Assembly: GCA_016933595.1 (NCBI GenBank)
Contig: JAFGAQ010000060.1
Span: forward strand, 1 to 34,668
DNA length: 34,668 nt
Source: Opitutales bacterium
GTDB taxonomy: Bacteria > Verrucomicrobiota > Verrucomicrobiia > Opitutales > JAFGAQ01
Direction: 5' to 3'
The notes under the pieces were generated by a model that ran no database searches, was not told where the DNA came from, and was given only the letters and a program-made list of their open reading frames with translations. Made by a program: the position numbers and the translations under genes. Of this stretch, positions 1,675 to 31,263 are shown in pieces. The stretch's first letter is position 1, and each line of letters opens with the position of its first letter.

Positions 1675-3009
1675 ATGAGAAAGAAAATCGTCACTCCGCG
1701 CAAATTTGTTAAGCCACCCTACTCGCTGTTGATCGAGAAAAAAAGAGACGGGTCCGAGTTCACGGAGGACGAGATTCGTTTTCTAGTGGATTCCGTTCTG
1801 GATCAGGAGATTCCCGACTATCAACTGGCATCCTTGCTCATGAGCATTTTCTTTGTCGGAATGTCGGCCCAGGAGACCGCGATCTTCGCCGAAGAAATGA
1901 TGCTTTCGGGTGAGGTTATTGATCTCACGGCCATTGCCAGGCCGAAGATCGAGAAATACTCCACGGGTGGGGTTGGAGACAAAACGACACTGGTTCTATG
2001 TCCCCTTGCAGCCGCCTGTGGGGTCGTGATGCCCAACATAAATGGTTCCGATGAAGAGTTCCTCATCAGTACACGAGACAAGCTGTCGGCCATTCCCGGC
2101 ATGAAGACGAGCATGTCCATGGAACGCTTTGTGAGCCAACTTCAGGATGTGGGATGTGCGATCGTTGGACAGCCGGACGACATCGCCCCTGTCGATGCCA
2201 TCCTATATAATCTCAGGCAGAAAACTGGAACCATCCCAAGCATTCCTCTGATCACCGGGAGCGTCCTAAGCCGAAAACTTGCTGCCGGGGCGGAGAGCCT
2301 CGTCGTTGATGTGAAATGGGGGAACGGTTCCTTCATCAAGGATGTTGAGCAAGCCAAGGTTCTCGCACGCTCCATTACGCGGGTGGGCCGTTCGATGAAA
2401 CGTCGTTGCGTGGCACTGGTAACCGACATGAACCAGCCATTGGGCGATACCGTCGGAACCTCTCTCGAGCTTCTGGAAGCGGTGCAACTGCTAAAGGGTG
2501 AAGGTCCCGATGATTTGAAAGAGCTCGTCCTCAAGCTCGGTATGGAGATTGTCAGATTGTCTGGCGTTGCAGGTAGTACCCTGTCGGCAAAACAGACGGT
2601 TCAACGGCACCTTGAGGATGGATCCGCCCTTCAAAAATTCAGGGAAATGATCCAAGCGCAGGGAGGAAACCCTGCCTTCATCGACGATCCATCCCTCCTG
2701 CCAAAGGCTAAACACGTTCGCAAACTTCCCGCACCGAAGCGGGGCTACGTCCATACCATCAACGCCGGAATGATCGCCCGTGGCGTTCAGATTCTCGCCA
2801 CCGATTCAAAAGGGAAAATCGACCCGGCTGTCGGCGTTTCAGAAATCAAGAAGGTGGGAACCCAAATGAAACAAGGGGAGCCGCTTATCATGATCCACTA
2901 TAACGACGAGGAAAGGCTTGAACCGGCGCTCGATTATTTGCGATCTGCCTTCAGATTAGCACCAAAACGGCCCACTCCACCCGATTTGGTCGTCGAAAGA
3001 GTGGCCTGA
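1675..3009 (+). CDS. deoA: Thymidine / pyrimidine-nucleoside phosphorylase
   Basis: 444 aa ORF; KYSTGGVGDKTTLVLCPLAAACGV phosphate/nucleoside-binding signature, KKRDGSEFTEDEIRFLVD N-terminus and LIMIHYNDEERL C-terminus typical of the deoA/pdp family. Confidence 0.93.
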   Translation: MRKKIVTPRKFVKPPYSLLIEKKRDGSEFTEDEIRFLVDSVLDQEIPDYQLASLLMSIFFVGMSAQETAIFAEEMMLSGEVIDLTAIARPKIEKYSTGGVGDKTTLVLCPLAAACGVVMPNINGSDEEFLISTRDKLSAIPGMKTSMSMERFVSQLQDVGCAIVGQPDDIAPVDAILYNLRQKTGTIPSIPLITGSVLSRKLAAGAESLVVDVKWGNGSFIKDVEQAKVLARSITRVGRSMKRRCVALVTDMNQPLGDTVGTSLELLEAVQLLKGEGPDDLKELVLKLGMEIVRLSGVAGSTLSAKQTVQRHLEDGSALQKFREMIQAQGGNPAFIDDPSLLPKAKHVRKLPAPKRGYVHTINAGMIARGVQILATDSKGKIDPAVGVSEIKKVGTQMKQGEPLIMIHYNDEERLEPALDYLRSAFRLAPKRPTPPDLVVERVA

Positions 3010-3013
3010 CCCA

Positions 3014-3571
3014 TCAGGCACGACCAAGATAGGCACCGGATTCAGTGCTCACTCGAATCCGGTCTCCTTCTTTAACAAACAGAGGAACCTGTACAACCAG
3101 GTCTGTCTCGGTGCGGGCTGGCTTCAAGGTTGTGCTTGCAGAGTCTCCTCGCAGTCCTTCCGGAGACTCCACCACTTTCATTTCGACCGTGGACGGAAGC
3201 TGAACTTGCTTTGGCTTGTCGTCCACAAACAGAATATCGTAGGATGCGGATGGAACGATGTACCGAAGGTCGTCTTCCACAAACGCCATTGGAAGAACAA
3301 CATCCTCGTAGGTTTCATTGTCCAGGAAATGATAACCATCGGCATCCGAATAACTGAACTCCAACCTCCGGTTTTCCACATCCAACACCTCAAGACGATC
3401 AGTGCTTCTAAACTTGGCTGTCGTCGAATTTCCCGTATCCAGATTCCTTAAAGTGGTCTGGACAAATCCAGCCTGTCGGCCTTGGGTGCGATGCATCACT
3501 TCCATCACAAGATGAGGACCACCCTGCAGCAGAACAACATTTCCTTTTCTCAAGTCATTTGGAGTTACCAT
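3014..3571 (-). CDS. efp: Elongation factor P (Arg at position 32)
   Basis: 185 aa; N-terminal KOW-like domain, VESPEGLRGDSAS...KPARTETDLVVQVPLFVKEGDRIRVSTESGAYLGRA matches the EF-P C-terminal OB domains. Loop reads RTQGRQAGFVQTTLRNL. Confidence 0.95.
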   Translation of the reverse strand: MVTPNDLRKGNVVLLQGGPHLVMEVMHRTQGRQAGFVQTTLRNLDTGNSTTAKFRSTDRLEVLDVENRRLEFSYSDADGYHFLDNETYEDVVLPMAFVEDDLRYIVPSASYDILFVDDKPKQVQLPSTVEMKVVESPEGLRGDSASTTLKPARTETDLVVQVPLFVKEGDRIRVSTESGAYLGRA

Positions 3572-3637
3572 GATCGGTCAAGACGGGTTTCATTCGATAT
3601 TCAAGGCGCGAATCGGTAGGAGATCATTTCAGTCTCG

Positions 3638-4159
3638 TCAAGTCTTTCCTGCCGCAAGCAATACCTGCAAGCGCTCGATAAAAGGAACCTGGCTCGCCTT
3701 CAATAATTCTTTCGCTCTTTTCACAGGAGCCATCTCCGCCCGATCAATCTCGGGGACATCCATCCAGACGCCCGATGAAGGGGGCCACTCCATCTTGAAT
3801 GAGTTGCTCGCCACAATCCGATCTTCCTCCCACTCGCCTTCCACCGCCCACGCGTATACGACCTTGCCTCCTTTTTGAATGATCATACCGAGCGACAGAT
3901 AGTCCGCCTCTTTCATGAGCTTCATTCCGGTTTCTTCTTCGAATTCTCTCACTGCCGCTTCAAACGCCTTTTCGCCCTTGTGGAATTCTCCCTTAGGAAT
4001 ACTCCAGTATCCTTCGTTCTTGTGGGTGAATAGCGGACCTCCGGGATGAACCACCAACACACGCAACTCATCGCCATTTCCACGACTGTTATCATACATC
4101 AGAATACCTGCGCTTTGCCGGATCTTAACTTGCTTGCTCTTTCCCACACGGTTTGTCAT
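3638..4159 (-). CDS. NUDIX hydrolase (predicted NTP pyrophosphohydrolase, COG4119-like)
   Basis: Nudix box GEFHKGEKAFEAAVREFEEETGM fits GX5EX7REUXEEXGU; context QSAGILMY...VLVVHPGGPLFTHKNEGYWSIPKGE. The listed ORF extends to 4480, but that extension overlaps fmt and looks non-coding; start taken as ATG at 4159 (MTNRVGKSKQ). Confidence 0.88.
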   Translation of the reverse strand: MTNRVGKSKQVKIRQSAGILMYDNSRGNGDELRVLVVHPGGPLFTHKNEGYWSIPKGEFHKGEKAFEAAVREFEEETGMKLMKEADYLSLGMIIQKGGKVVYAWAVEGEWEEDRIVASNSFKMEWPPSSGVWMDVPEIDRAEMAPVKRAKELLKASQVPFIERLQVLLAAGKT

Positions 4160-6016: not shown

Positions 6017-6062
6017 CGCATGGGAATCGAATACAGTATTCAGCAACTTTTCACCTAGCATC

Positions 6063-7031
6063 ATGTCCGAACAAAAAAGCAGACTTGGACGCGGCCTAAG
6101 CGGCCTGATCTCACACGGCACATCACCATCCGGGAAATCTGCAGTGAATACAGTTGAGGTCGCATCACGGCTTCAATCCATTCAAGCAGAACAGAACCAC
6201 GGAGCATCGGATCGAGGGTCCCCAATCGGCGATTACATGGAAATCCCCGTCGGGCAGATCTCTCCCAATCCGTTCCAACCCAGAAAAACAATCGAAGAGG
6301 AGTCATTGGATGGTTTGGCCGAGAGCATTCGCGAGCAGGGATTACTCCAACCCATCGTTGTGCGGAGGCTCGCTTTGGATGCATTTGAGCTCATTGCCGG
6401 AGAAAGGCGAATGCGGGCATTTCAGAAGCTGAAGCTGTCACGCATTCCCGCCCGGATCATTGAGGCAAACGATGCGAAATCCGCCTCGCTCGCCCTTATC
6501 GAGAACTTGCAACGGGAGGGATTAAACCCGATTGAAGAAGCACTCGGTTACGCCAGTCTTGTCAGGGATTTTGATCTCACTCAGGAAAAAGCGGCTGAGA
6601 GAATCGGGAAAAATCGCGCAAGCTTTGCCAACGCACTCCGGTTGCTAAGACTTCCTGCGGAAATTCAGTCTTGGATCGCGAAGGGATTAATCTCAACCGG
6701 GCATGCTAAAGTGATCCTCGGACTCGAATCCAAAGAGGAGCAGCAGGCATTTGCCCGCAAAATACTGGAGGGTGGATGGAGTGTTAGAGAGGCAGAGCGC
6801 CGGATTATAAACTTCCATATATCCGGACGGCAGGCGACCAAATCCGCTCGCGACAACACAGACCCTGCTGTGCACACCGCACTGAAAGACTTGGAGAAAA
6901 AGGTTTCAACCCGACTCAGTGCCGAAACACAGGTTAAGCACAAAGGAAAAAAGGGGCAGTTGATCATCCATTACCATGGCCTTGATGATCTTCAGAGAAT
7001 CATGGAAACAATCGGAGTATCATCCGACTGA
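6063..7031 (+). CDS. parB: ParB/Spo0J family chromosome-partitioning protein
   Basis: MSEQKSRLGRGLSGLIS N-terminus (LGRGL ParA-interaction motif), ISPNPFQPRKTIEEESLDGLAESIREQGLLQPIVVRR, GERRMRAFQKL (GERRxRA CTP-binding motif), HTH region. In-frame upstream start at 5994 judged less likely. Confidence 0.93.
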   Translation: MSEQKSRLGRGLSGLISHGTSPSGKSAVNTVEVASRLQSIQAEQNHGASDRGSPIGDYMEIPVGQISPNPFQPRKTIEEESLDGLAESIREQGLLQPIVVRRLALDAFELIAGERRMRAFQKLKLSRIPARIIEANDAKSASLALIENLQREGLNPIEEALGYASLVRDFDLTQEKAAERIGKNRASFANALRLLRLPAEIQSWIAKGLISTGHAKVILGLESKEEQQAFARKILEGGWSVREAERRIINFHISGRQATKSARDNTDPAVHTALKDLEKKVSTRLSAETQVKHKGKKGQLIIHYHGLDDLQRIMETIGVSSD

Positions 7032-7032
7032 C

Positions 7033-7064
7033 AAAAAAACCGCAGCCTAAACTGCGGTTTTTTT
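7033..7064. terminator. Bidirectional intrinsic terminator shared by parB (+) and rpoC/6S RNA (-)
   Basis: Perfect inverted repeat AAAAAAACCGCAG-CCTAAA-CTGCGGTTTTTTT; GC stem flanked by A-tract on one side and T-tract on the other, so it works on both strands. Confidence 0.92.
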
Positions 7065-7071
7065 GAAATAT

Positions 7072-7245
7072 AGAGTCCCCACATGTGCCGATAAGGTGGG
7101 CTCTTAACCCGGTCCTCACAAGGTGGGGGTATCTTCACAGGCTTCTGCCTTCCGGTTCACGGCTTGACATCATCCCGCAAAGGGCAACCCCCTATTCGGT
7201 TTACATAGGAAAAGAGCACGTGTGTTCGAACACCGCAGGGACTCT
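7072..7245 (-). ncRNA. ssrS: Probable 6S RNA
   Basis: Minus-strand RNA AGAGUCCCUGCGGUGUUCGAACACACGUGCUCUU...AAGAGCCCACCUUAUCGGCACAUGUGGGGACUCU, about 174 nt. Long closing stem (AGAGUCCCUGCG-G-UGU with ACAUGUGGGGACUCU), 6S-like GCGGUGUUCG at the 5' side of a central bubble, apical stem restarting at GUGCUCUU/AAGAGCCCAC. Followed directly by an intrinsic terminator. Confidence 0.78.
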
Positions 7246-7258
7246 GAAATGAGCTCAC

Positions 7259-10200
7259 TTACATGGCATCTTCACTGACCATATCGTATTCGCTTTTCAG
7301 CTCTCCCCCGAGGGTATCGATTCGCAAGTGGCGATAAGAAGGCAATCCGGTCCCGGCAGGAATCAGATTTCCCATGATCACATTCTCCTTGAAGCCCCTC
7401 AGACGATCTACCTTACCCAGCGTTGCGGCTTCAGTGAGAACACGTGTGGTTTCCTGGAAGGATGCGGCTGAGATAAAGCTTTCCGTCTCAAGCGATGCCT
7501 TGGAGATACCCAACAACAGCGGCTCAGCTTCGGCTGGCTTTCCACCGGCTTCAACGATTCGCTCATTGGATTCCATGAAATTGAAACGGTCAATCTGCTC
7601 GCCCCAGAAGAATTCCGAATCACCCGGATCGGTGATCCTCACTTTGCGCAACATCCTGGAAAGGATCACTTCAATGTGTTTGTCGCTGATCGAAACGCCC
7701 TGCACACGGTACACCTTCTGAATCTCGGATAGGAGATACTCCTGCACCGCACTGGGTCCGAGAATCTCGAGGATTTCGTGTGGGTCGGCCGCCCCTTCGG
7801 TGAGGTGCTGGCCACGGGTGACCACATCACCGGGCTGAACAATCATGTGCTTGCCATGGGGGATAAGGTGTTCCTCCTTCTCTCCCGTCTCCGGATCTGT
7901 TACGATCAAACGCCGTTTGCCCCGAACCGTTCCTTCGAGGCTCACAATTCCGTCAATCTTTGCCATCTCGGCGGCATCCTTTGGCCGACGCGCCTCAAAC
8001 AACTCTGCAACACGCGGCAAACCACCGGTGATGTCCTGAGTCTTGGCTGCCTGCCGCGGCGTCCTCGCCAAAATGGTGCCTTCCTCAATGAAGTCACCCT
8101 CGTTGACCGAAATCTGAGCTCCTGTCGGAACGCTATAACTGGCCACGGGATCACCCTTCTCATTACGGATCACAATCTGGGGATTCAGGTCTTCCTTGTG
8201 TTCAATAACCGTGCTTGCGATACGTCCGGATGCATCATCCTTTTCACGCTTAACCGTCACTCCCAAAATCATATCCGTGAAGGAAATGATACCCGTCTTT
8301 TCCGACAAAATGGGAACCACTGTCGGGTTCCACACCGAAAGACGGTCGCCCTTCTTTATGGTCGCACCATCTTCGAAGAGCAAGGCCGCACCCACAACCA
8401 TCTTATGGATTTCGAGCTCGAAATCGTCGTTGTCCAGAATACGGATTGAGCCGGTCTTGTTCGTGACAACACGGCCACCATCCTTGGTCCTGACCCAACG
8501 TAGATCTTTGGAGTATTTAATTTTCCCTCCATTGCGTACCCGAATTTCCGGATCCCGCTTACTCTGATTTGCCACCCCACCAATGTGGAAGGTTCGCATG
8601 GTCAGCTGAGTCCCCGGTTCCCCAATTGACTGGGCAGCAACAATACCAACTGCGCTCCCGATCTCAACAAGATCGTTGGTCGCCGGATCCACACCGTATT
8701 CTTTCGCCGTGATTCCAACCTTCTGCTTGGTCGTCAGCGGCGACATAACGCGAATACGGTCGATGCCCAGCGTTTCTATGCGCTTGGCGGTTTCCTCATC
8801 GATCATCTGCCCGGAGCGAACCAGAATTTCAGAAGGATCCAAAGGATTCAGAATGTCATCGGTCGCAAACCTGCCAACGATACGTTCATAGAGGGACACA
8901 ATATCATCGTTACCATCCCCGATCGCAATCTTCCAAACCCCATCGCGATTCCCGTCATCGATTTCGGCAACCACACAATCCATCGCCACATCACACAGTT
9001 TGCGGGTCAGATACCCGGCATCCGCTGTCTTGAGTGCGGTATCAGCCAGACCCTTGCGGGCTCCGTGGGTCGAAATGAAGTATTCAAGCACCGACAACCC
9101 TTCACGGAAGGAAGCAAGAATCGGCCGCTCAATAATATCTCCGGATGGCTTGGCCATCAAACCACGCATACCGCACAACTGACGCACCTGCTGTTTGTTA
9201 CCACGGGCTCCTGAGTCCATCATGATGTAAACAGGATTGATCTCGTCGCGGCTCCGGCTGGTGGATAGACTCTGGAAGACCTCTGCCGCAACCTTATCGG
9301 TCGCACCACCCCAGATGTCCACGATCTTGTTGTATCGTTCACCCGTCGTCGTGATACCTTTGCGGAACTGACTCTCAACTTCCTCAATCGAAGCACGGGC
9401 ACGCTTAATGATTTCCTGCTTGCTCGGGGGAATGATCATGTCGTCGATACCGATCGAAATACCCGCCTGAGTAGCAACCTTGAAACCGAGCTGCTTCAGG
9501 CTATCCAAGGTCTCGATCGTCTTTTCCTGACCCGTCGTCTTGTAAGTGGCAAGAATAAGGTCGCCAAGCTTCCCCTTGGCCACTGGGTAGTTTACAAAAC
9601 CAACCTCACGCGGCCAAATTGTGTTGAAGATCACACGGCCGACTGTGGTCCGGATAACCTTCCGTTCAGAGTTTCCAACTTCCGTTTCACGGCCATGGTC
9701 CGGATTCTTGAGGTCGATCCAGTCGTGCTTTTTCAGCACACCATCCGCCTCAGCCAACAGCACCTCATCAATGCTTTCGATCAACGGAACACGCTTTCCC
9801 GCCTCAGGCTTTGCCACCGGCTCAAACGTCAGGTAATACGAGCCAAGAACAATGTCCTGTGACGGCGTCAGAATCGGCTTACCACTGGATGGTGAAAAGA
9901 TGTTGTGGGTCGCCATCATCAGCAATTTCGCCTCCATCACCGCTTCAAGTGACAAGGGAACATGGACCGCCATCTGGTCACCGTCAAAGTCAGCATTGTA
10001 TGGAGTACAAACCAACGGATGCACGCGAATCGCATCACCTTCAATCAGAACTGGATCGAATGCCTGGATAGACAAACGGTGAAGGGTTGGCGCACGGTTC
10101 AACAAAACCGGGTGCCCCTTGGTCACTTCCTCGAGAATGTCCCACACCTCGGGTGACCGTTTTTCGATCATCTTGCGGGCCCCACGAACCGTGTGAACAA

Positions 10201-11368
10201 AGCCCAATTCCTTCAAGCGACGGATGATAAACGGTTCAAAGAGAACCAAAGCCATCTTTTTGGGCAATCCGCATTGGCTCAACTTGAGATCCGGACCAAT
10301 CACAATTACCGAACGGCCCGAATAGTCAACCCGCTTCCCAAGGAGATTCTGTCGGAAACGACCCTGCTTCCCTTTGAGCATGTCACTCAAGGACTTCAAC
10401 GGACGGTTTCCGGCTCCTGTAATCGCCCGACCATGCCTACCATTGTCGAAGAGTGCATCCACGGATTCCTGGAGCATCCGCTTTTCGTTGTGGATGATCA
10501 CGTCCGGAGTCTTGAGCTGCATCAGGTTCTTCAAACGGTTATTCCGGTTGATCACCCGACGGTAAAGATCGTTCAAATCCGATGTCGCGAAGCGACCCCC
10601 TTCCAGAGGAACCAAAGGCCGCAAATCTGGAGGAATCACCGGAAGAACCTCAAGAACCATCCAATCCGGACGAGTCCCGGATTCCATAAAGCCTTGGATC
10701 ACCTTCAGTCGCTTCGCGATCTTCTTCTTGATCTGCTTGGAACGCGTTGCATGCATCTGCTCATGCAATTCGGAAACCAAAGCTGGCATATCCAGAGATC
10801 CCAAAACATCGCGGATCGCTTCCGCTCCCATCTTGGCCTCGAAAGCATCGTAGCCATATTCGTCCTGTGCCTGCTGGAACTCCTGCTCGGTCAATAGCTG
10901 CTTCTCCTCGAGAGGAGTCTTTCCCGGCTTGGTGACCATGTAGTTCTCGTAGTAGATCACCCGCTCAAGGTTGCGTGCCGTAACATCCAACATGAGCCCG
11001 ATCCGACTCGGCATGCTCTTGAGGAACCAGATATGGGACACCGGCACGGCAAGCTCGATGTGCCCCATACGTTCACGACGCACACGGGCCACGGTGCACT
11101 CAATACCCGTGCGCTCGTCGATCATGCCCTTGTATTTGATGCCTTTGTACTTTCCGGCTTCGTAATCCCTTACAGGTCCGAAGATTCGCTCACAAAACAA
11201 TCCGCCCGGCTCAGGCTTGAAGGTTCTGTAGTTGATTGTCTCGGGGTTTTTTACCTCGCCCCGGGACCATTGCCTTATCGAGTCCGGAGATGCGATCGAG
11301 ATGGCGACGCTCCGAAGGGAACGGTCTTTGTCGAGACTGAGAGATTCAGCAAATTCCTGGTTACTCAT
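7259..11368 (-). CDS. rpoC: DNA-directed RNA polymerase subunit beta'
   Basis: 1369 aa; [49 protein letters not shown] with the NADFDGD catalytic motif. Confidence 0.99.
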
Positions 11369-20003: not shown

Positions 20004-21386
20004 CTAGTTCACAATCGTGAACATCAAGTCGGCTGAAGAGACCACCTGGCCAGCAACCTTGCATTCAGCGGAAGCCATTCCCATTTTTCCAGCTCTGGTT
20101 TTTTTCATTTCCACCTCAATCCGGATTTGGTCACCGGGTTCCACAGAACGCCGGAATTTCACCGCATCACAGCTCATGAACAGGGCAACCTGGCTCGCCT
20201 TCCCGATCATCTTCAAAAACAGGATCCCTGCAGCCTGCGCCATCGCTTCAATCTGCAAAACGCCTGGCATCACCGGCTGGGCGGGAAAATGCCCAACAAA
20301 ATAGGGTTCGTTGATCGTCACGTTCTTGATGGCAACCAATCGATTGCCGTTTATCTCGAGAACCCGGTCCACCATCAGAAACGGATACCGGTGCGGCAAT
20401 GCCTTGAGCACTTCGTGAATCGCCATGCTTGCAATCCCGCTTTCGGCCTCCGCGCTCAAGGTATGGCTTTCAGCAAGTGAGGTGCCTTTCGCCGCAACAA
20501 CCGGACCCGAAGCCACAACAGCAGGAGCAACCACTTCCGCCTGAGGGGTCGCTTGGATGGACTCCGCCATCAAGCGCGCCATCCGGCTGTTGATCGCATG
20601 ACCCGGCTTCACTGCAATCACATGCCCTTTAAAATGGGCACCGGCCAGACTCAGGTCACCGACCAAATCGAGAATCTTGTGCCGCACAAACTCGTTCTCG
20701 AAACGCAAGGGCTCCTTGGAAAGCACCTTGTCATCCTTGATTACCAATGCACTTTCCAGACTACCTCCTTTGATTTTCCCCATTTGAATCAGGGACTCAA
20801 TGTCTTCGTAAAAAGTAAAAGTCCGGGCCGCAGCAATCTCGTTCACATAGGATTCAGGATCCAGATCAATCGAATAGTACTGCGTAAAACGTCCCTTGGA
20901 GTCCGAAAACGTGCACGAAATTCTAAACCCGTCATAAGGCAAAACAACAATCGAACGATCCGCATCCACCACGGACAAAGGCGTTCCAATCGCATGAATC
21001 TGCCTTGGAGCGTCAAGATTCTCTACCCCCGCCTTTCGGATCATCTCCACAAATGCTTTCGATGAACCGTCCATAATTGGAGGCTCACTCCCGTCCAGCT
21101 CGACTATCGCATTGTCCACGCCCATGCCCCGCAAGGCACTGACAACATGCTCAACGGTATGGACTTTGGCGTGCCCGGATACCAGCGTGGTGTTGCGTAC
21201 CAAATCCCCAACGTTCGAACAGTGCGCTTGGATTTCAGGGGAACCAGGCAAATCACTTCTCCGGAAAATGATGCCTTGGTTTGCCGCAGCAGGAAGCAGC
21301 TTCAAATTCACACGCTCTCCCGTGTGAAGGGAGACGCCTTGTGTCTCGATCGCTCTTGAAAGGGTTCTCTGCTTGATATCCATCAT
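20004..21386 (-). CDS. lpxC-fabZ: Bifunctional UDP-3-O-acyl-N-acetylglucosamine deacetylase (LpxC) / 3-hydroxyacyl-ACP dehydratase (FabZ) fusion
   Basis: 460 aa; LpxC motifs (SRAIETQGVSLHTGERVNLKLLPA, VHTVEHVVSALRGMGVDNAIVELDGSEPPIMDGSS, HKILDLVGDLSLAGAHFKGHVIAVKPGHAINSRMAR) followed by FabZ (ALPHRYPFLMVDRVLE, PYFVGHFPAQPVMPGVLQIEAMAQ). Confidence 0.95.
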   Translation of the reverse strand: MMDIKQRTLSRAIETQGVSLHTGERVNLKLLPAAANQGIIFRRSDLPGSPEIQAHCSNVGDLVRNTTLVSGHAKVHTVEHVVSALRGMGVDNAIVELDGSEPPIMDGSSKAFVEMIRKAGVENLDAPRQIHAIGTPLSVVDADRSIVVLPYDGFRISCTFSDSKGRFTQYYSIDLDPESYVNEIAAARTFTFYEDIESLIQMGKIKGGSLESALVIKDDKVLSKEPLRFENEFVRHKILDLVGDLSLAGAHFKGHVIAVKPGHAINSRMARLMAESIQATPQAEVVAPAVVASGPVVAAKGTSLAESHTLSAEAESGIASMAIHEVLKALPHRYPFLMVDRVLEINGNRLVAIKNVTINEPYFVGHFPAQPVMPGVLQIEAMAQAAGILFLKMIGKASQVALFMSCDAVKFRRSVEPGDQIRIEVEMKKTRAGKMGMASAECKVAGQVVSSADLMFTIVN

Positions 21387-28946: not shown

Positions 28947-29873
28947 CTATTCAGATCGGGCGATCACCCCGTCAACCAAGCGCCGAATCTCCGCTTCAGA
29001 ATCACGGTGTCCGATCACAACCAGATATCCACCGGATACCGGAGCATCTGCCAGCGGTCGTTGATTCAACTGCCCGGGAGTCCAGTCAAAGTAGAGCATC
29101 CCGGCACCTATTCCTGCAGGCAAAAATCCTTTCGCCCGGTAAACGGATGGACCGATGGCAGTGAAAGCCGTCACCAAGGCACCGCCTTCCACATGCCGCC
29201 CCAAAAGCTTGAATTCACATGCAACATACGCGCCAGGACTAACCGGCAGAACGCCATCCGCCCACTCCGGAGGTACTGCAGGCAGCGAAAACAAGACTTT
29301 CCCGTGCGACACCCGCTCAACCGGAACATCAGGCCGGAGCGCACGGACCGCACGAATGGTTTCCTCGATCTGGTCCTCCGGGCTGATATCGCACTTATTG
29401 ATGACAACGCGGCTTGCACCCATCACCTGCGCATTCAACACCGGTAATGCTTTCTGGAGTTTGATCCACTGCCCTGGCACAACAACCGCCAGCGTCTCCC
29501 TAACCTCAAAAAATGCATCCAGTCGGCTCTCTTTCAGTAGAGTTGGCATTCCATTCGGGTCCGTCATCCCACTGGTCTCAATCACAAGCAGATCCACCTC
29601 AGCGGATCCCGCATCACGCAGTTCAACCAATTTGCGCATGTGCCGGATAAAATCTCCCGATCGGCATCGGCACAGCAAACTCCCCCCTTCCACCGTAATT
29701 AAAGGTAAGCCCGTCGACTTCAACAAAACAGGATCCACCCCTTTACTGGCAAACTCGTTAACCAGGAACACCAGTTTCTGCCCAACAAATGTCGACGCCA
29801 AATGGTTTAAAAGCGTGGTTTTGCCACTCCCAAGGAACCCACTGACCAGCAGAACCGGTATAGGATCGCTCAT
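28947..29873 (-). CDS. CobW/G3E-family P-loop GTPase
   Basis: MSDPIPVLLVSGFLGSGKTTLLNHL (Walker A), VFLVNEFASKGVDPVLL, LLVIETSGMTDPNGM, VVINKCD. The ORF extends to 30128, but that extension overlaps the upstream gene; ATG at 29873 preferred. Confidence 0.88.
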   Translation of the reverse strand: MSDPIPVLLVSGFLGSGKTTLLNHLASTFVGQKLVFLVNEFASKGVDPVLLKSTGLPLITVEGGSLLCRCRSGDFIRHMRKLVELRDAGSAEVDLLVIETSGMTDPNGMPTLLKESRLDAFFEVRETLAVVVPGQWIKLQKALPVLNAQVMGASRVVINKCDISPEDQIEETIRAVRALRPDVPVERVSHGKVLFSLPAVPPEWADGVLPVSPGAYVACEFKLLGRHVEGGALVTAFTAIGPSVYRAKGFLPAGIGAGMLYFDWTPGQLNQRPLADAPVSGGYLVVIGHRDSEAEIRRLVDGVIARSE

Positions 29874-29892: not shown

Positions 29893-31263
29893 TCAGCATT
29901 TGCCGGACGCCTTGAGGATCGCCTTGGCCAGCGTCTTGCTGTCGGGAATAATGGACGCGTAGGCAAGCCTACCCTGAATACAAATACTCGGGATAGCATC
30001 CACTCCCAGCTTCCGCATAGCGGCAAGTCCTTCCTTGGTCGTGATCTTGTGCTCGACCACTTCGATGGGATCTCCAACTGCCTCAGCGGCATCACGGGCT
30101 GCAAGCACCATATACTGACATGGAGCACACGCAGCGGAGTTCAAGGTCACCACATCTATCCGGATGCGATCCAGTGAATCATAGTCCGGCAAATCAATAT
30201 CCGGAAGATCCCCCCCGTCCGCATGAGCCTCAAGGGTTCGAACCACATCCCGTTCATACGGATCATGGACCAAACGCGCTACCGCCTCGAGATTCGCCGG
30301 TGGAACGGCATAGGGCAGATCACAACCGGGGGCCAAAATGAAACCGGACGCTCCACCCTTGTCCAGACAATCGATGGCATCCTTCTGGCACTCCAACGGT
30401 GAACCCAGCAACAGTGTCGTCGTGAGCTTCAGGTTTCCGCCAAATGACTTCCCGGCCTTTTGGGCAACCGAACGCAAAACCGCTAGATCAATGTTTTCAT
30501 CCACCGATACATTGTCACAATGGGTCTCACACATCACCTCCAGGTTGCGGGTGGCATCCCCACAGACGAACAGACTCGAAAGCCTCCCCGCTTCGGCAAT
30601 CGCATCAAAAACCCGATTCAAGGGTCCGGATACAAAACGTAAGAAATGCTCAGACGATATCTGACTGATCATGGGATCAACCACAGCCAAAACATCAACC
30701 CCCGCGTCCAGATACGCCTTTGCCATCCGGCAAGCAACATCCGCACAATATGCCATCAACTGGTCCGCCGAATCCTCATCACAGATCAAATCCATGAACA
30801 ACTCGGCACTCCTCAGGTGCAAGGCAAGCGTCAATGGTCCGGTAATGAGTCCATACAACGCCACATCCTTACCAATTCCGGACTTGAGCCGACGGGTCGC
30901 TTCGATCACCACAGGCAAACGACCGGAGTTCGCGTCAAATGCGGGCAACACTCCGATATCCACCGGCATTTGGCCCGCTAACGGATGAGATTTAACCGCA
31001 GGCGGTGTCTCGGAGGCCCACTCCAATTCACATCCCAACATCTCGGCCTCTATCTGTAAATCAAATACAATCGGAACACCATCCGGCTTGTATCGATCAC
31101 AAACGTGCAACACTCCCTTCTCGATCAGGTTTGCATCCCGCAAAAACAACTCCGGATCCGCCCCAATCAAACTCCCGGCATGCACTCCGGCGAAAGGCAC
31201 CCAAGGGATTCGCTCGGGCGTCTCTCCACGTAGGGCCTTCAACAAAATTTCCTTTCCTGTCAT
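29893..31263 (-). CDS. Uroporphyrinogen decarboxylase-like (MtaA/CmuA-type corrinoid methyltransferase superfamily) protein with C-terminal thioredoxin-like domain
   Basis: 456 aa; MTGKEILLKALRGETPERIPWVPFAGVHAG (UroD/MtaA N-terminus), SLFVCGDATRNLEVM, SFGGNLKLTTTLLLGSP, then a C-terminal 88 aa domain IDVVTLNSAACAPCQYMVLAARDAAEAVGD...GVDAIPSICIQGRLAYAS. Confidence 0.85.
   Translation of the reverse strand: MTGKEILLKALRGETPERIPWVPFAGVHAGSLIGADPELFLRDANLIEKGVLHVCDRYKPDGVPIVFDLQIEAEMLGCELEWASETPPAVKSHPLAGQMPVDIGVLPAFDANSGRLPVVIEATRRLKSGIGKDVALYGLITGPLTLALHLRSAELFMDLICDEDSADQLMAYCADVACRMAKAYLDAGVDVLAVVDPMISQISSEHFLRFVSGPLNRVFDAIAEAGRLSSLFVCGDATRNLEVMCETHCDNVSVDENIDLAVLRSVAQKAGKSFGGNLKLTTTLLLGSPLECQKDAIDCLDKGGASGFILAPGCDLPYAVPPANLEAVARLVHDPYERDVVRTLEAHADGGDLPDIDLPDYDSLDRIRIDVVTLNSAACAPCQYMVLAARDAAEAVGDPIEVVEHKITTKEGLAAMRKLGVDAIPSICIQGRLAYASIIPDSKTLAKAILKASGKC

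Follow-up and report, generated by a model that had tools for sequence, protein, structure and literature searches.

In many anaerobes, corrinoid methyltransferases determine how methylated compounds are used. MtaA, which together with MtbA represents the methylcobamide:coenzyme M methyltransferases, binds zinc through an HxC motif and a distant cysteine; the use of coenzyme M itself is not expected in bacteria. The MTI enzymes CmuA and MecE, which serve chloromethane and dichloromethane use, act with corrinoid proteins; the cassette that encodes MecE (337 aa) also specifies further URO-D proteins and a pterin-binding MTII, and CmuA is fused to a corrinoid domain (PMC9768040). Phaeobacter and Ruegeria possess a split methionine synthase/RamA-like system that includes DUF1638 (PMC5764234; PMC12478193). 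The text of neither paper mentions URO-D proteins, and that of PMC12478193 does not mention thioredoxin. The HUIPC-motif thioredoxin-like (seleno)protein family NF047660 is listed in PMC13188914.

The window examined here is a stretch of 34,668 nucleotides from an Opitutales bacterium (Verrucomicrobiota; assembly GCA_016933595.1, contig JAFGAQ010000060.1). It carries a gene that joins a URO-D barrel to a thioredoxin domain, followed by a gene for a GTPase:

29893..31263, minus strand: URO-D (MtaA/CmuA-type)/thioredoxin fusion protein, 456 aa, intact open reading frame
30244..31263, minus strand: URO-D/MtaA-like TIM-barrel domain, about aa 1–340, from the Pfam URO-D match
29905..30165, minus strand: thioredoxin-fold domain, about aa 367–453, from the family profile, AlphaFold2 and PDB fold matches
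28947..29873, minus strand: CobW/COG0523-type GTPase, 308 aa, with the motif GSLLCRC, from Pfam cobW

The first-pass annotation, made from the letters alone, had read the frame at 29893–31263 as a UroD/MtaA-like protein fused to a thioredoxin-like domain, and Pfam, a family profile, AlphaFold2 and full-length relatives all support this reading. Since the fusion recurs full-length in many independently assembled, divergent relatives (44–59% identity) as well as in one same-genus relative at 95%, it lies far beyond chance; an assembly or frame-joining artefact is ruled out by the same independent relatives. Comparison of the whole gene with that of the same-genus relative gave a dN of 0.025 and a dS of 0.261, and the AlphaFold2 model of the entire protein, built from an alignment from which a row from the plasmid collection was left out, has a mean pLDDT of 91. 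Promoter and terminator scanning stayed near chance level, and PADLOC gave no defence-system match. The fusion is real and conserved, and it represents a variation on an enzyme type already known, not a new type. The joined form itself seems to be undescribed, as term searches of an open-access literature collection found no paper describing a URO-D/thioredoxin fusion.

To define the extent of the fused family, 388 genomes of the phylum were searched, yielding 32 near full-length matches besides the window (44–56% identity) and a handful of partial matches (45–57%); the next homologues had 33% identity or less and covered essentially the barrel only. Among the genomes compared from the window's own family, the fusion was present only in the same-genus genome. 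When one genome per species was scanned, more than 580 relatives were identified, and the best 80 of these, the set analysed further, are all full-length fusions. According to the phylum names in the sequence records, which are mostly metagenome bins, these 80 derive from Verrucomicrobiota, Planctomycetota, Hydrogenedentota, KSB1, Zipacnadia, WS1, Bacteroidota, Clostridia and others. No viral relatives were found, and a single record, from Subdoligranulum (OY725850, 48%), is labelled as a plasmid. In this record a radical-SAM-like protein is encoded directly after the fusion (L061, 1558–2566), an arrangement also seen at one locus from the phylum (L039, reverse complement, 2881–3799), where the radical SAM scan was below cut-off. 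One genome with a full fusion additionally contains a second, partial copy of the barrel (G185:C6:83183–83836; aa 138–352, 57% identity), which may be a pseudogene or a contig artefact.

The barrel matches Pfam URO-D over aa 4–334 (E 1.5e-58, 198.9 bits, cut-off 23.9). The best-fitting curated subfamily is TIGR01463 (mtaA_cmuA; E 8.6e-46), although the score of 156.7 bits is below the curated cut-off of 235.4, and we therefore refer to the barrel as MtaA/CmuA-like without assigning it to TIGR01463; the MtaA_Meth model scored 134.1 of 400 bits. Both by sequence profile (E 3.3e-38) and as the top Foldseek match (E 1.9e-21, TM-score 0.89 over the target), the closest solved structure is 4ay7, the methylcobalamin:coenzyme M methyltransferase of Methanosarcina mazei. 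The earlier placement of the N-terminal part in the UroD/MtaA/CmuA superfamily is thus upheld by Pfam, by the higher rank of TIGR01463 over the hemE model and by 4ay7, and these matches place the barrel on the MtaA/CmuA side of URO-D rather than with hemE. Relative to the same-genus protein, aa 1–340 have a dN/dS of about 0.10, indicating purifying selection. Two motifs correspond to the zinc site of MtaA:

30559..30570, minus strand: FVCG (aa 232–235) at the zinc-motif position, with the His of HxCG replaced by Phe and Cys234 kept, in the alignment of 60
30322..30333, minus strand: APGC (aa 311–314), containing the second MtaA zinc-ligand Cys, kept, aligned to APGC of 4ay7

F232, C234 and G235 are invariant in the alignment of fused proteins (60/60), and P312, G313 and C314, as well as the acidic pair D255-E256, are likewise found in every one of the 60 sequences. 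The fused family therefore departs from the 'HxC ... C' feature of TIGR01463 by having Phe in place of His throughout, with both cysteines retained. In unfused MtaA-like homologues encoded at the same loci or in the same genomes (L067, L074, L141, G243 and G044), HxCG and the distant Cys are retained, and the alignment indicates that the zinc motif varies in other URO-D groups. Judged by the alignment, the His-to-Phe change (FxCG) is a new feature that is constant in the fused family; this change and the downstream cobW gene are two features absent from the first-pass annotation. With the canonical His ligand missing, zinc binding by the fusion is not certain. Loss of the His and acquisition of the thioredoxin domain go together and probably, as the simplest explanation, share one origin, so that their correlation counts as a single event.

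The C-terminal domain contains two motifs characteristic of thioredoxins:

30118..30129, minus strand: CAPC (aa 379–382), thioredoxin-type active site, in the alignment of 60
29989..29991, minus strand: P425, the cis-Pro position in ...IPSICI, with Cys428 after it, in the alignment of 60

Single-sequence matches to this domain were weak and below cut-off, both for Pfam Thioredoxin_3 (aa 369–447, E 0.0036) and for the NCBIfam HUIPC thioredoxin-like model (aa 375–449, E 1.1e-6, 28.6 of 105 bits). A family profile, in turn, matched solved thioredoxins over aa 364–448 (1nho, E 1.8e-5; 1fo5, 1.9e-4; 1ilo, 0.0057). In the AlphaFold2 model, aa 367–453 follow with high confidence the beta-alpha-beta-alpha-beta-beta-alpha order of the thioredoxin topology, and when folded alone the domain reached a pLDDT of 90, with PDB fold matches that are nearly all thioredoxins (1ilo, TMt 0.73; 1v98_B, TMt 0.70). 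C379-A-P-C382 straddles the start of the first helix; C379, P381 and C382 are present in 60/60 aligned proteins and A380 in 59, while P425 is invariant and C428 occurs in 56 of the 60. The domain accordingly has the fold, the CxxC at a helix start and the cis-Pro loop of a thioredoxin. Over aa 362–455, comparison with the same-genus relative gave a dN of 0.0095 and a dS of 0.193 (dN/dS about 0.05), and this low ratio, together with the invariance of CxPC and cis-Pro, argues that the domain is under selection and is not decoration. On the basis of the model, the C-terminal domain is a thioredoxin fold, and redox activity is predicted for the CxPC pair. The first-pass annotation had recognised a thioredoxin-like C-terminus with CAPC and a cis-Pro region, in agreement with the profile, the fold matches and the conservation; its boundary (the last 88 residues, about 29893–30159) was right to within a few residues, and the structure prediction that it recommended returned the expected fold. 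No stand-alone thioredoxin of the same subfamily was detected at E 1e-5 among the 388 genomes of the phylum, in which all 18 matches to the HUIPC model NF047660 are frames at fusion loci, none of them above cut-off. In-frame TGA codons in three distant URO-D matches, considered as possible signs of Sec-encoded relatives, turned out to be the normal stop codons with which these genes end.

The gene for the CobW-type GTPase starts 19 bases past the stop codon of the fusion, on the same strand. Its product matches Pfam cobW (E 2e-29, 102.9 bits, cut-off 20.7, in a scan begun at the codon after the ATG), contains the Walker A sequence GFLGSGKTT and is below all equivalog cut-offs. A same-strand CobW gene is located within 300 bp of the fusion in 60 of the 71 related loci with enough sequence, the window's included, making it by far the most constant neighbour of the fusion; these partners carry the motif GS[ILV][FLV]CxC in 65/68 cases and Walker A in 67/68. 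In the window, the pair is flanked by genes that by eye resemble those for dihydroxy-acid dehydratase and glutamate dehydrogenase, and the window contains no corrinoid-binding protein, as had been stated. Further away, a 460-aa open reading frame on the minus strand (20004–21386) reads by eye as an LpxC-FabZ fusion.

Amongst the 80 loci that represent the best of the more than 580 relatives, a stand-alone corrinoid protein is encoded within 5 kb of the fusion in 30, another URO-D protein in 18, RACo in 12, DUF1638 in 12 and a homocysteine S-methyltransferase (PF02574) in 8; half of the 80 loci, some of which are on short contigs, have no corrinoid-related gene within 9 kb. The gene order corrinoid protein, URO-D, fusion, CobW, DUF1638, RACo is found at three loci (L065, L070 and L140), and the same run occurs with one more URO-D gene at L068 and with a further unfused MtaA-like gene at L067, which derives from the cultured Pelagicoccus mobilis KCTC 13126. 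Three other loci (L116, L129 and L135) have the order corrinoid protein, (URO-D), fusion, CobW, homocysteine methyltransferase, and L102 has corrinoid protein, RACo, DUF1638, fusion, CobW, homocysteine methyltransferase, with formate-THF ligase upstream. In a Clostridia bin (L133), MtaB is encoded two genes upstream of the fusion, the sole case of MtaB; the CobT-like and MtaB genes upstream of this fusion (about 6026–11353) suggest a methanol-using variant.

At the genome level, a stand-alone corrinoid protein was found in 31 of the 33 tested fusion genomes of the phylum versus 7 of 31 without the fusion (Fisher p 3e-9, a value inflated by shared ancestry, since the comparison group comprises chosen genomes from the window's order and most fusion genomes come from other parts of the phylum). 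Matches were sorted by eye, using E-value and open frame length. Together with the gene neighbourhoods, this co-occurrence ties the fused family to corrinoid chemistry, as the first-pass annotation had proposed. The two fusion genomes without such a protein are G226 and the window's own, for which the recommended search for corrinoid proteins was only partly rewarded: a full MetH (1337-aa frame) was the only corrinoid protein recovered, and no stand-alone partner was found in the assembly, whose incompleteness (77.65% complete) may explain the missing protein. Searches for RACo and DUF1638 gave no match in the source genome or in the same-genus genome. The latter (G001) encodes in a row a corrinoid protein (220 aa), a homocysteine methyltransferase (294 aa), a Met_synt_B12 protein (255 aa) and a URO-D protein (382 aa), whose sequences suggest a split methionine synthase together with a methyl-loading enzyme of its own. 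This run (L145, 1902–5310; G001:C356) was not found in the window's assembly.

The fusion protein combines two domains, conserved strictly together, with a CobW partner and, in relatives, with corrinoid and methyl-transfer genes. We propose, with confidence that is evenly balanced, that it functions as an MtaA/CmuA-type methyltransferase that depends on zinc and links corrinoid-bound methyl groups to a thiol sulfur, the attached thioredoxin serving as a dithiol module. A methyl-corrinoid protein of the stand-alone type and a thiolate inside the barrel would be the two partners in the transfer, the substrate and direction being our suggestions. From what is known of the family, zinc would be held by Cys234 and Cys314, with Glu256 or another group substituting for the lost His, and the bound metal would activate the thiolate. 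The CxPC pair might reach the mouth of the barrel, where it could reduce the thiol substrate when this is present as a disulfide or mixed disulfide, or keep the zinc cysteines reduced, and CobW may mature the fusion by delivering metal through GTP hydrolysis. Such direct action of the redox module on the catalytic domain or its corrinoid/thiol substrate, suggested in the first-pass annotation, is likewise a proposal. Against the overall reading stand the failure to find a stand-alone corrinoid protein, RACo or DUF1638 in the source genome, the lack of the latter two in the same-genus genome as well, the half of the 80 loci (some on short contigs) with no corrinoid-related gene within 9 kb, and the loss of the canonical His ligand. 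In the source lineage the methyl group would probably pass to homocysteine to give methionine, given that one run in the same-genus genome encodes a corrinoid protein together with a homocysteine S-methyltransferase, an activation protein of the MetH type and another URO-D protein.

This same run, and the presence of PF02574 genes near the fusion-CobW pair in relatives, would also fit a role for the fusion on the donor side of a methionine synthase that is split and independent of folate; the fusion would demethylate a methylated thiol or thioether and load the corrinoid protein, leaving a separate homocysteine S-methyltransferase to make methionine. We consider this unlikely, though worth keeping in view: a second URO-D protein, often present in such runs, could fill the donor-side role, and the source genome also has a full MetH. 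Rather improbable in our judgement is a catalytic thioredoxin domain, in which a CxPC cysteine replaces the His as zinc ligand and/or serves as methyl (or sulfur) acceptor. The constancy of Phe in fused proteins as opposed to the HxCG of unfused homologues, the invariance of both thioredoxin cysteines and selection on the thioredoxin part at least as strong as that on the barrel all speak for this; however, Phe could simply accompany Glu256 or water as ligand, the resolving cysteine C382 suggests ordinary disulfide chemistry, and the probable common origin of His loss and fusion reduces their association to one correlated event. The fuller version, in which a thioredoxin cysteine both takes the place of the missing His and accepts the methyl group or sulfur, so that the thiol substrate is the protein's own attached domain, we hold to be improbable. 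It is quite improbable that the thioredoxin domain functions in metal delivery, handing zinc to the barrel with the CxC-bearing CobW and having no role in the catalytic cycle: the constancy of CobW as neighbour and of its CxC motif would suit this, but CxPC and cis-Pro constitute a redox signature, and no thioredoxin is known to us to shuttle zinc in such a role. Finally, a heme uroporphyrinogen decarboxylase with a decorative C-terminal domain, for which superfamily membership and the alignment of Asp68 with the conserved Asp of hemE could be cited, can be set aside as extremely improbable, because the source genome has a separate hemE (G000:C293, E 2e-103), the hemE model TIGR01464 scores only 67.7 bits on the fusion (E 8.6e-19, cut-off 302.95) and the MtaA cysteine motifs are present, in accordance with the earlier view that the true heme UroD is unlikely to need such a domain. 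The condition that the first-pass annotation had named as refuting, namely that this be the genome's only hemE, is therefore excluded by the genome search that it advised.

Methyl transfer between a corrinoid protein and a thiol, assisted by an attached dithiol module, is hence the reading that we prefer. The widespread fusion, the changed zinc site, the thioredoxin module and the near-constant CobW point to a thiol-linked step of methyl transfer in Verrucomicrobiota, Planctomycetota, Hydrogenedentota and others, and make the fusion a concrete candidate client for its group of CobW-type GTPases.

Compared with known systems, the fusion resembles MtaA and MtbA (4ay7/4ay8) in its URO-D barrel, for which they are the best sequence and fold match, and in keeping the Cys of xCG and APGC, with an acidic pair VDE where 4ay7 has VEE; it differs in scoring far below their family cut-offs, in having Phe for the His ligand and in the attached thioredoxin domain. 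The downstream gene shares its GTPase domain with COG0523/CobW proteins, such as the CobW-related selenoprotein NF041053 and ZigA-type zinc chaperones, but has GS[ILV][FLV]CxC rather than the CxCC motif usual in this group. For the C-terminal domain, NF047660 is the best-matching thioredoxin subfamily, from which the fusion is distinguished by a Cys where Sec stands and by its low score. The stand-alone corrinoid protein, homocysteine methyltransferase, RamA-like protein (RACo) and DUF1638 encoded around the fusion in relatives recall the Phaeobacter/Ruegeria system. CmuA and MecE belong to the same URO-D branch as the fusion but, as described in PMC9768040, are without a thioredoxin part.
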